Of a DNA stretch of 64,000 nt, positions 1,691 through 24,974 are shown piece after piece; positions within the stretch are counted from its first letter, which is position 1, and every line of letters starts with the position of its first letter. The stretch is from Nitratireductor basaltis (GTDB taxonomy: Bacteria > Pseudomonadota > Alphaproteobacteria > Rhizobiales > Rhizobiaceae), in contig NZ_JMQM01000001.1 of assembly GCF_000733725.1 (NCBI RefSeq), positions 1,426,001 to 1,490,000 of the forward strand, written 5' to 3'. The translations under genes and the position numbers were made by a program. The notes under the pieces were generated by a model. It did not search any database. It saw nothing but the letters and a program-made list of their open reading frames with translations, and was not told where the DNA came from.

Positions 1691-2407
1691 ATGAGCAAGC
1701 TTGCCGAGGATCGGGTCACCTTTCATCCTCAGAGCGCAAATGCGCCTGTGGAGTGGCGCGTGGAACCCGGGCTCACCGATTACGAATCGGCCCTGGCATT
1801 CATGGAACAAAGAGCCGATGCGATCCGCGCCGGCGAAGCATGTGAACTGGTCTGGCTCGTCGAACATCCGCCGCTCTATACCGCCGGCACCAGCGCGAAG
1901 CCTGATGGCCTGGTGCAGGCCGATCGATTTCCCGTCTACAAGGCTGGCCGCGGTGGCGAATTTACCTATCACGGACCGGGGCAGCGCGTGGCCTATGTCA
2001 TGCTGGACCTGAAACGCAGGCGCGAAGATGTCCGCGCTTTCGTGAAGGCCCTGGAGGAATGGATCATCCACAGCCTCGCTTCCTTCAATATCCGGGCCGA
2101 GCGGCGGTGTGACCGGATCGGCGTGTGGGTTGAGCGACCCGACAAGGCCCCTCTTCCCGATGGCAGCATGATGGAAGACAAGATCGCGGCGATCGGCATC
2201 CGCTTGCGCAGATGGGTGAGTTTCCACGGGATTGCGGTAAATGTGGAACCCGATCTCAGCCATTTCGGCGGGATCGTGCCCTGTGGCATCACCGGCTATG
2301 GCGTAACCAGCCTCGTCGATCTGGGACTTCCCGTTGCCATGGAAGATTATGACCTTGCTCTGCGACGGTCATTTGGCGAGATCTTCGGCCCGTCCGTAGA
2401 CCGGTAA
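1691..2407 (+). CDS. lipB: octanoyl-[acyl carrier protein]:protein N-octanoyltransferase LipB
   Basis: A 238-residue LipB. It moves the octanoyl group from octanoyl-ACP to a lipoyl-domain lysine, the first step of endogenous lipoate assembly for the 2-oxoacid dehydrogenases and glycine cleavage H protein; cytosolic. The family signatures are present: EHPPLYTAG near residues 58-66, [13 protein letters not shown] near 86-98, the catalytic Lys in [10 protein letters not shown] (K164) and the nucleophilic Cys in [10 protein letters not shown] (C198). ATG at 1691 is preferred over an upstream in-frame ATG at 1655 because GGAG sits eight bases before it. It stands alone between the tRNA-Leu and a convergent SOS-boxed gene. 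Confidence 0.96.
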
Positions 2408-2514: not shown

Positions 2515-2553
2515 GTGCCGCCGCGTTTGTGCGTGCATTGCACGCGGCGGCAC
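2515..2553. repeat. inverted repeat between lipB and the small membrane-peptide gene
   Basis: A perfect 12-bp inverted repeat (GTGCCGCCGCGT at 2515-2526, ACGCGGCGGCAC at 2542-2553) with a 15-base loop that holds an alternative nested hairpin (GCGTGCA/TGCACGC). It lies between two convergent genes and may act as a bidirectional terminator, though neither side has a good T tract. Confidence 0.5.
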
Positions 2554-2581: not shown

Positions 2582-2668
2582 TCAGAGCGCACCTATCCAG
2601 GTGGCTGCAACCACGATGAACGAGCTTACTGCGACCAGCGAAACAACATCCTGGATGAGGTCGGTCAT
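2582..2668 (-). CDS. 28-residue single-pass membrane peptide under an SOS promoter (SidA-like candidate)
   Basis: A 28-codon gene starting ATG at 2668 with an excellent ribosome site (AGGAG, six bases upstream). The peptide has a short polar N-terminus (MTDLIQD) and then one continuous hydrophobic stretch (about residues 8-26, VVSLVAVSSFIVVAATWIG) ending GAL, i.e. a single transmembrane segment. A near-consensus sigma-70 promoter with a perfect alphaproteobacterial LexA box in its spacer lies 44 bases upstream. In Caulobacter crescentus the 29-residue inner-membrane peptide SidA is SOS-induced and blocks division at FtsW/FtsN; size, topology and control fit, but homology is not shown and the function is inference. 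Confidence 0.75.
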   Translation of the reverse strand: MTDLIQDVVSLVAVSSFIVVAATWIGAL

Positions 2669-2711
2669 GGGTGTCTCCTGTGCATAAGTGTGTTTTGAAC
2701 CTTGTATGATC

Positions 2712-2740
2712 CTTATATGTTCCTCTAATGTTCTCGTCAA
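2712..2740 (-). promoter_or_regulatory. sigma-70 promoter of the small membrane-peptide gene
   Basis: On the minus strand: -35 TTGACG (2740-2735), exactly 17 bases, -10 TATAAG (2717-2712). Transcription should start near 2705, leaving a leader of about 37 bases with the AGGAG ribosome site at its end. Confidence 0.8.
2719..2733. promoter_or_regulatory. LexA/SOS box (GTTC-N7-GTTC)
   Basis: The sequence GTTCCTCTAATGTTC is a perfect match to the direct-repeat SOS box GTTC-N7-GTTC of alphaproteobacteria. It sits wholly inside the spacer between -35 and -10 of the promoter above, where bound LexA would occlude RNA polymerase. Confidence 0.85.
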
Positions 2741-3081: not shown

Positions 3082-3780
3082 TCACCGACCGCCTTTGACG
3101 TCGATCTCGACAATCTTGCCGTCACGCAATGTCACGCATCGATCCATGCGGCGCGCGAGTTCCTCGTTATGCGTGGCTATCATCGCAGCAAGGCCTGACT
3201 GGCGCACAAGGGCTTCCAGAGCTTCGAAGACATAGCCTGCCGTTGCCGGATCGAGATTGCCCGTCGGCTCGTCGGCAAGAAGAACCAGCGGCGCATTGGC
3301 CACGGCTCGCGCAATGGCCACGCGTTGCTGCTCACCACCAGACAACTCGGCTGGACGGTGATCCGCGCGCTTGCCGATCTTCAAATAGTCGAGGAGCTGC
3401 GCCGCCCTCTCCTGCGCTTCCTTCGGCGGGAGACCGGCGATGAGCTGCGGCATCATCACATTTTCCAGGGCGGTGAATTCCGGCAGGAGATGATGAAACT
3501 GGTAGACAAATCCGATCTCACGGCGGCGGATGGCCGTGCGCTTGTCGTCCGAGAGACCGGTGCAGGACTGGCCGTTTACGGTCACTTCGCCAGAATCTGC
3601 ATGTTCCAGCAGACCGGCAATGTGCAAAAGCGTGGACTTGCCCGTGCCGGACGGTGCGACGAGCGCGACCGTTTCGCCGGAATTGAGCGTGAAATCTGCA
3701 CCTTCGAGGATGCGCAGAACCTTTGCACCCTGGGTGAACTGGCGATCGATCGCCTTCAGTTCCAGAACGGCTGTCGCCAT
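3082..3780 (-). CDS. lolD: lipoprotein-releasing ABC transporter ATP-binding protein LolD
   Basis: A 232-residue ABC ATPase that powers release of outer-membrane lipoproteins from the inner membrane to the carrier LolA. Walker A reads APSGTGKST (residues 42-50, with Ala in place of the usual first Gly), the signature is LSGGEQQR (about 146-153), Walker B LLADEP (167-172) and the switch His is in IATHN (H204). The segment [18 protein letters not shown] is typical of LolD. Its ATG overlaps the lolC stop by one base (TAATG), so the two are translationally coupled in a proS-lolC-lolD operon. Confidence 0.95.
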
Positions 3781-23893: not shown

Positions 23894-24377
23894 GAGTTGG
23901 TGGTCGGTAGTCGGTAGTGAATAGTAGGTAGTAATCATCTTGTCGGTCCGTCTACTCACTACTTTGCTTCGCTTGTACCGCTCGGATCAGTGAACGCAGC
24001 ATCTTTCCGATTTCCTCACAGCGACGCAAAAGTTCGGTTTCATTCTCAGTCGGGCAGACACCAACCCGACATGCGAGCAGAATCTGCGTTTCAAGCTCTT
24101 TCAGAGATCCCTGCGCCACTCGCAAGAACTGAACAAAGACCCCATTACTATCTCTTCCGAAGCCTTCGGCGATGTTCGAGGCTATGGACACGGAGGCACG
24201 ACGCATCTGGCTTGTCAGACCGTAAATCTCGGAATTCGGGAAACTGTCGCTTGCCTTGTACACAGCTTCGGCCAACGCCATTGCTGCCTGCCAAACCTTC
24301 AAGTCCCGATAATTCCGGATGACATCTGCCACCCATACCTCCTGCCCTACCAACTACCTACTACCGACCACCTACTC
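23894..24377. mobile_element. 0.48-kb cassette with terminal inverted repeats inside the nuo operon
   Basis: The segment between nuoC and nuoD is bounded by an 18-base inverted repeat with one mismatch: GAGTTGGTGGTCGGTAGT on the plus strand at 23894-23911, and GAGTAGGTGGTCGGTAGT on the minus strand at 24377-24360. Inside each end the motif GGTAGT recurs in degenerate tandem copies. The right repeat covers the last codon and stop (GAG TAG) of nuoC, so the insertion may have supplied them. The only gene within is a four-helix-bundle protein in the operon direction. No transposase is present, so any mobility would be in trans; mobile status is inferred. Confidence 0.65.
23952..24332 (-). CDS. 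four-helix-bundle protein of the 23S rRNA intervening-sequence (IVP) family
   Basis: A 126-residue all-helical protein with the hallmarks of the IVP/S23 family (TIGR02436-like): an N-terminal NYRDLKVWQAAMALAEAVY, the central YGLTSQMRRASVSIASNIAEG with FGRDS, and FLRVAQGSLKELETQ. Family members are encoded in intervening sequences of 23S rRNA and elsewhere; they form oligomers but their function is unsettled. GTG at 24332 is chosen because AGGAGG lies five bases upstream. The gene lies between nuoC and nuoD, inside a cassette with terminal inverted repeats and in the same direction, so it must share the complex I transcript. Confidence 0.88.
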   Translation of the reverse strand: MADVIRNYRDLKVWQAAMALAEAVYKASDSFPNSEIYGLTSQMRRASVSIASNIAEGFGRDSNGVFVQFLRVAQGSLKELETQILLACRVGVCPTENETELLRRCEEIGKMLRSLIRAVQAKQSSE

Positions 24378-24974
24378 CTTGGCTTTCTCATCCCCCGGCA
24401 ACACATACTCCGTTCCCTCCCACGGAGAGAGGAAGTCGAAGTTGCGGAATTCCTGGCGCAGTTCCACCGGCTCGTAGACCACGCGCTTGGCTTCGCCGTC
24501 GTAGCGAACCTCGACATAGCCGGTCAGCGGGAAGTCCTTGCGAAGCGGGTAACCCTCGAAACCGTAGTCGGTCAGGATGCGGCGCAGGTCCGGGTGGCCG
24601 GTGAAGAGCACGCCATACATGTCGTAGACTTCGCGCTCGTACCAGTCGGCACCCGGGAAGACGTCGATGACGGAAGGCACGGGCGTGTCTTCATCGGTCG
24701 ACAGCTTCACGCGGATACGCTGGTTCTGGCGCGGAGACAGGAGATGGTAGACCACCTCGAACCGCTTCTTGCGCGCCGGATAGTCGGCGCCGGAAATGTC
24801 GATGAAGGACACGAACTGGCACTGAACATCGCTTTTCAGGAAGTTCAGCACGTCGACGATGTCGCCGGCCTCGACGATCAGCGTCAGTTCGCCATAGGCC
24901 ACCACCGCGTCCTGGATCTGTGCATCCAGCTTCTCGGTGATATAGGCCGCCAGGTCCTTTAGCGCTTCGCTCAT
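24372..24974 (-). CDS. nuoC: NADH-quinone oxidoreductase subunit C
   Basis: A 200-residue peripheral subunit (30-kDa type) connecting NuoD and NuoB. Recognisable motifs are [51 protein letters not shown], here noted as [12 protein letters not shown] (about 110-121) and [20 protein letters not shown] (about 129-148). Separate from nuoD, as usual in alphaproteobacteria. Its last codon and stop lie within the terminal repeat of the inserted cassette, so the native 3' end may have been altered. Confidence 0.96.

Follow-up and report, generated by a model that had tools for sequence, protein, structure and literature searches.

Small membrane proteins that are induced by DNA damage and inhibit division include YneA (Bacillus), SosA (Staphylococcus), ChiZ (Mycobacterium) and DivS (Corynebacterium), which in these respects would resemble the peptide described here and are all larger than its 28 residues. 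An interaction with FtsW has been reported for YneA, and ChiZ carries a LysM domain (PMC13396833). In Caulobacter, the SOS response is described as inducing SidA, an inner-membrane protein of 29 residues that acts on FtsW/FtsN and, in the published model, keeps FtsW/FtsI/FtsN inactive (PMC4211646), and models place it on TM7 of FtsW, not with high confidence (PMC13396833). DidA, also from Caulobacter, likewise blocks division as a small membrane protein, with FtsN as its target, but it is SOS-independent and induced by DriD (PMC4211646). Among the matches listed in the open full-text literature, taken at the level of titles and the beginnings of abstracts, none describes a SidA orthologue outside Caulobacter.

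Here, we present an analysis of a 28-codon gene of Nitratireductor basaltis, located in a 64,000-nucleotide stretch of contig NZ_JMQM01000001.1 (hereafter the window, meaning this whole stretch), which very probably encodes a SidA orthologue acting on FtsW/FtsI/FtsN. For the whole explanation, in which the gene would be the rhizobial sidA orthologue, controlled by LexA and inhibiting division, our estimate from the sequence comparisons is a probability of about 0.87. An earlier note on this DNA, made from its letters, had called the peptide SidA-like, and the comparisons point to something stronger, as Caulobacteraceae have, beside dnaE, a homologous peptide of some 29 residues with a LexA box, in a position that the gene also has in some Rhizobiaceae.

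The gene and its control region

The gene for this predicted single-pass membrane peptide lies on the minus strand at 2582-2668, with the ATG beginning at 2668 and a TGA stop codon at 2584-2582. Ahead of it on the same strand, the -35 element TTGACG (2735-2740), the -10 element TATAAG (2712-2717) and the ribosome-binding site AGGAG (2675-2679), six bases 5' of the ATG, can be read directly. The two promoter elements are separated by 17 nt (TTGACG-N17-TATAAG), and most of this spacer is filled by a perfect LexA/SOS box, GAACATTAGAGGAAC (2719-2733), which has the form GAAC-N7-GAAC on the minus strand and reads GTTC-N7-GTTC on the plus strand. Promoter, box, ribosome-binding site and 28-codon frame are in every detail as the earlier note had read them. 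The upstream neighbour is lolD, on the same strand (3082-3780), and downstream a convergent lipB (1691-2407, plus strand) occupies the place that dnaE has in other species.

The whole promoter-box motif, allowing up to two mismatches, occurs once in the genome, at this locus, and was absent from the control. In a 13-row alignment of the genus, TTGAC of the -35 element is invariant and ATA of the -10 element is largely kept. A generic promoter scan returned zero promoters in 2400-2900; its rule requires the -10 hexamer to end in T, whereas TATAAG ends in G. The genome holds one lexA above the family cut-off, and it carries a box of its own, GAACACAACTGGAAC, 64 nt before its matched start.

On the 3' side of the gene, before the convergent lipB, a perfect and GC-rich 12-bp inverted repeat (2515-2553, minus strand, read directly) is a possible candidate for the transcription end, lacking a T run. 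The 115-nt stretch containing this repeat has a fold z of -2.7, and a terminator scan called none at the repeat. The leader further contains, just before the ribosome-binding site, a DnaA-box-like 9-mer, TTATGCACA (2679-2687, minus strand), found in our material only in the genus itself: the pattern TT[AT]TNCACA occurs in the leaders of 11 of 15 own-genus orthologues, in none of 48 other loci scanned and in nine of 700 random 60-nt windows. For TTATGCACA / TTATNCACA we presume that the label DnaA box applies, and the presence of TTATNCACA at 2679-2687 could reflect either a link to replication initiation or common ancestry. Elsewhere in the window, an integrase-like gene (226-1308) and a tRNA-Leu(gag) (1364-1448) adjoin, possibly at the edge of an integrated element, and open reading frames resembling this integrase (cluster 11, four members) were seen near the peptide gene in a few relatives.

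The product, MTDLIQDVVSLVAVSSFIVVAATWIGAL, has 28 residues, of which D3 and D7 alone bear charged side chains, none following D7, and it is predicted to form one hydrophobic membrane-spanning helix, as a SidA-type protein requires. No family of Pfam or NCBIfam matches it at E up to 10. SulA is a soluble FtsZ-binding protein, and membership of the SulA group was rejected for this hydrophobic 28-residue peptide with its lack of family matches.

Conservation of frame, ribosome-binding site and box

The 28-residue query was searched against 61 genomes (the own genome and 60 relatives), of which 23 gave a match at E<=1, including all 16 of the own-genus genomes that were searched, self counted. At E<=0.01, a profile built from 20 rhizobial rows, in which M1, D7, F17 and W24 are invariant, had a match in 233 of the family's 394 genomes, covering 78 of its 109 genera. 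Seventeen weakly matching genomes were re-read individually, giving 18 matches. The frame has 28 residues in 17 of these, a perfect box lies within 100 nt in 16, and a dnaE motif follows in 17; the weak matches are therefore mostly real.

A scan of named relatives kept 80 of 108, representing Chelativorans, Nitratireductor, Mesorhizobium, Aminobacter, Aquamicrobium, Aquibium and metagenome bins, with Chelativorans species and Nitratireductor luteus as the closest at 93% identity. The earlier note had proposed looking for joint conservation of the frame, the AGGAG and the box in Hyphomicrobiales, and had stated that a frame or box without conservation in related genomes would speak against its reading. 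All three proved to be kept: in each of the 80 loci the frame, counted from the matched start, has exactly 28 codons, a Shine-Dalgarno-like motif is present in 79, and a perfect box lies within 100 nt upstream in 77, two of the remaining three having a box with one deviation. Among controls, a box was seen in 5 of 1529 windows drawn at random from these loci and in 6 of 1600 upstream regions resampled by a Markov model. In a set of fetched loci, reduced from 60 to 57 by dropping three with a wrong frame or a contig end (L078, L080, L113), 48 carried a perfect box, and five of the nine without it are the box-less copies treated below; these five were also left out of all counts of neighbouring genes, which refer to 52 fetched loci.

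A comparison of 13 close orthologues gave a dN/dS of 0.13 in the peptide frame and of 2.0 and 2.8 in the other two frames, and the third codon position is variable in 26 of 27 codons. Measured in this way, the peptide frame is under purifying selection.

Beyond the family, the profile search over 384 other genomes of the class gave nothing convincing (best E 1e-3, in G383), and orthology further out therefore rests on dnaE synteny and the box. We examined the dnaE upstream regions of the class outside Rhizobiaceae and Caulobacteraceae in the 30 best-scoring loci and, additionally, in 60 chosen regions, among which are the own genome and two repeats of known positives (G101, G069). A box was present upstream of dnaE in 6 of the 30 and 10 of the 60 regions, followed by a hydrophobic mini-ORF in five and nine, respectively; the boxed mini-ORFs come from genomes of families f149, f147, f108, f152, f84, f26, f68 and f36. 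The remaining regions of both sets had no box at the threshold used. The peptide gene looks old within Alphaproteobacteria.

Gene order around lolD and dnaE

A same-strand lolD precedes the peptide gene in the window, in 37 of the 52 fetched loci and in 70 of the 80 named loci. Downstream, dnaE lies within 700 nt in 12 of the 52 fetched loci, eight of which have both neighbours, and the dnaE motif of the re-read weak matches begins 249-794 nt after the peptide start in 17 of 18. In the window and in all 80 named loci dnaE is absent from the 700 nt downstream (both neighbours: 0 of 80), and a convergent lipB follows the gene in 27 of these 80 and in 14 of the 52 fetched loci. The dnaE of the window genome is located elsewhere and has no box (L323), so that of the two neighbours lolD alone is kept here. 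To judge from these arrangements, the ancestral order looks like proS-lolC-lolD-peptide-dnaE, and dnaE would have left this position in the lineages around Mesorhizobium and Chelativorans.

In Sinorhizobium meliloti, a translated sORF25 has been reported in the 5'-UTR of dnaE1, for which its authors suggest uORF roles, and the shortest annotated ORF of that species has 30 aa (PMC10117765). Three genomes of genus g372 (Ensifer-type) carry a boxed 28-residue gene, and from its start it is 283-286 nt to a dnaE motif; in one of the three, a replicon agrees with Ensifer adhaerens NZ_CP015881 in every letter across 8000 bases. Because the gene stands just before dnaE in these genomes, sORF25 is probably the peptide gene of this family.

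The probable counterpart in Caulobacteraceae

The Caulobacteraceae set was defined by the holdfast protein HfaD as the marker of the family, with a control search that was positive in Caulobacter vibrioides only, and dnaE upstream regions were examined from 48 of the 60 genomes searched. A sliding scan located members of a single peptide family ahead of dnaE in 46 of the 48, with scores of at least 44, compared with a best score of 13.2 in 44 reverse-strand control windows; it missed G824 and G836, in the latter of which a 28-mer is readable (L297). A stricter scan anchored on the start codon, which misses G836 too, retained the peptide in 41 of 48 genomes, with 29 residues in 38 of the 41 and F17 likewise in 38. 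The counts of boxes were taken from this anchored scan, as the longest start of the sliding scan may precede the box: within 120 nt of the 41 peptides there are 27 perfect boxes and 37 of the GAAC/GAAT form, four peptides having not even a relaxed box, and 708 control windows gave 0 perfect and 2 relaxed boxes. In genome G842 the order is lolD, tandem boxes, 29-residue peptide and dnaE, and its GcrA is identical in 153 of 160 positions to the GcrA of PDB 7ye1, which we take to be that of C. crescentus. In many Caulobacteraceae (for example L295 and L301), two box-like sites stand about 17-18 nt apart before the peptide gene, with GAAT often as a half-site.

A profile of 49 Rhizobiaceae peptides was compared with one of 20 Caulobacteraceae peptides. 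These 20 are a subset of the peptides found; they were selected for their position, box and hydrophobicity, regardless of any resemblance to the peptide of the window, and have hand-chosen start codons. Columns 1-18 of the two aligned with each other in register (score 25.2, probability 91), and the match exceeded all 300 shuffles, the best of which reached 22.0 among 150 full-column and 22.7 among 150 membrane-part shuffles. The alignment comprises columns 1-18 only; the C-terminal third of the Rhizobiaceae and Caulobacteraceae peptides did not align.

The place of sidA itself can be approached through locus tags. In Caulobacter, dnaE is CC1926 and lexA is CC1902 (PMC1839093), lexA is also CCNA_01979 (PMC11535069), and sidA is CCNA_02004 (PMC11034885). 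The two series differ by an offset of 77, and if this holds over the 24 intervening genes, sidA adjoins dnaE. We take sidA to be CC_1927. We infer that the dnaE-linked peptide of Caulobacteraceae is SidA. The orthology proposed for the window gene follows from the homology of that peptide, the common position and the tags that put sidA beside dnaE. In its likeness to SidA of C. crescentus, the window gene combines a LexA box in the promoter, a product of 28 versus 29 residues, one predicted hydrophobic helix, N-terminal 18 residues that are homologous in the presumed Caulobacteraceae copies, and a place beside lolD/dnaE in some of its relatives; it differs in that dnaE lies elsewhere in its genome and in the C-terminal third, for which there is no alignment.

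Box-less copies in phage-like surroundings

Five relatives of the peptide (L081, L084, L101, L134 and L136) are box-less, and four of them start with MRDL. Further box-less relatives are found at L376-L378 and at L379:2501-2587, and several of the whole group are located in prophage or phage early regions. Downstream of the copies in L134 and L084 there are exonuclease VIII-like and RecT-like genes (PHROGs); L134 also has a gene of metallo-protease type and L081 one with a weak repressor match, and the tested proteins from L136 and L101 matched no informative family. Searching with a profile built from four of the box-less copies led to three IMG/VR contigs. The A2 peptide profile yielded 21 pattern stretches in viral contigs, none of which was confirmed, and the search of phage records gave one poor match only (E 7). 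On a Pseudochrobactrum plasmid, MNGFIQDLCSLASMSIFVAVLLTYIGAFS overlaps two genes, an annotated one at its stop and an ERF-family gene at its start, and is not listed separately in the PLSDB gene table, which is itself incomplete.

The Kil protein of phage lambda is an early-region division inhibitor encoded near recombination genes and acts on FtsZ. Some of the box-less copies share this early-region place near recombination genes, and by this analogy the box-less copies may be captured, Kil-like division inhibitors; the comparison is one of genome position, and that the copies stop division is our guess. A broader history, in which SidA is no peculiarity of Caulobacter but arose in early Alphaproteobacteria as a checkpoint peptide next to the replicative polymerase gene (lolD-sidA-dnaE), and in which rhizobial phages took it, without the SOS box, into their early recombination regions as a Kil-like means of stopping host division, seems to us somewhat more credible than its opposite.

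Proposed mechanism and alternative explanations

In the mechanism that we propose, LexA bound to the box in the spacer would hold the gene off until DNA damage activates RecA and LexA cleaves itself. The promoter and the ribosome-binding site would then give a burst of the 28-residue peptide, which would enter the inner membrane as a single helix and keep the septal wall-synthesis complex FtsW/FtsI/FtsN inactive, so that cells would grow as filaments until the damage is repaired. In this chain, LexA binding, membrane insertion, the FtsW/FtsN target and filamentation are what we infer for the window gene.

One objection would be that a chance open frame stands beside a chance match to the LexA box, and the bare box pattern indeed occurs no more often than expected: the window has 2 occurrences where 1.89 are expected, and the genome has 110, compared with 102 in a reversed control. 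Counting boxes alone is uninformative, and the other box of the window, at 24813-24827, was itself taken as chance. It falls within a frame of 200 aa (24372-24974), which we take to resemble nuoC. Against a chance origin of the peptide gene stand the box and frame kept jointly in 77 of the 80 named loci and the variation at third codon positions; going by this conservation, the chance reading is already refuted, and we give it practically no credence. A real gene could still encode an idle leader peptide, or be a uORF, that tunes the next gene, dnaE1 or another. The position in some Rhizobiaceae, on the same strand and a few hundred nucleotides before dnaE (12 of 52 fetched and 17 of 18 re-read loci), speaks for this, as do the uORF roles suggested for the translated sORF25 of S. 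meliloti, but gene and box persist where dnaE is not within 700 nt, in the window and all 80 named loci, the low dN/dS of 0.13 points to a peptide that itself matters, and the next gene in the window is the convergent lipB. As the gene persists without an adjoining dnaE, the leader role was rejected and is in our judgement very improbable.

The peptide might instead be an SOS membrane peptide with another task, such as depolarisation of the TisB or DinQ kind. TisB is an SOS-linked single-helix peptide, and the same description is given for DinQ (PMC3567139), so that the general features of the window gene would fit this reading as well. The in-register homology and the gene order, however, point to the dnaE-linked peptide of Caulobacteraceae, and the residues D7, F17 and W24, invariant in 20 rows, would appear to be more than a bare hydrophobic helix needs, which makes a depolarising peptide unlikely. 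We therefore retain the reading as a SidA orthologue.

Implications

The range of SidA-type genes appears to be wider than the literature searched describes, and unexpectedly so, the 28 codons of such a gene being easily overlooked by annotation. With it, rhizobia gain a specific gene that may serve as an SOS division inhibitor, which bears on their survival of DNA damage and is perhaps relevant to bacteroid differentiation. The Caulobacter checkpoint would become a much wider one, the many natural variants could serve for mapping the contact between SidA and FtsW, and sORF25 of S. meliloti would receive a testable function.
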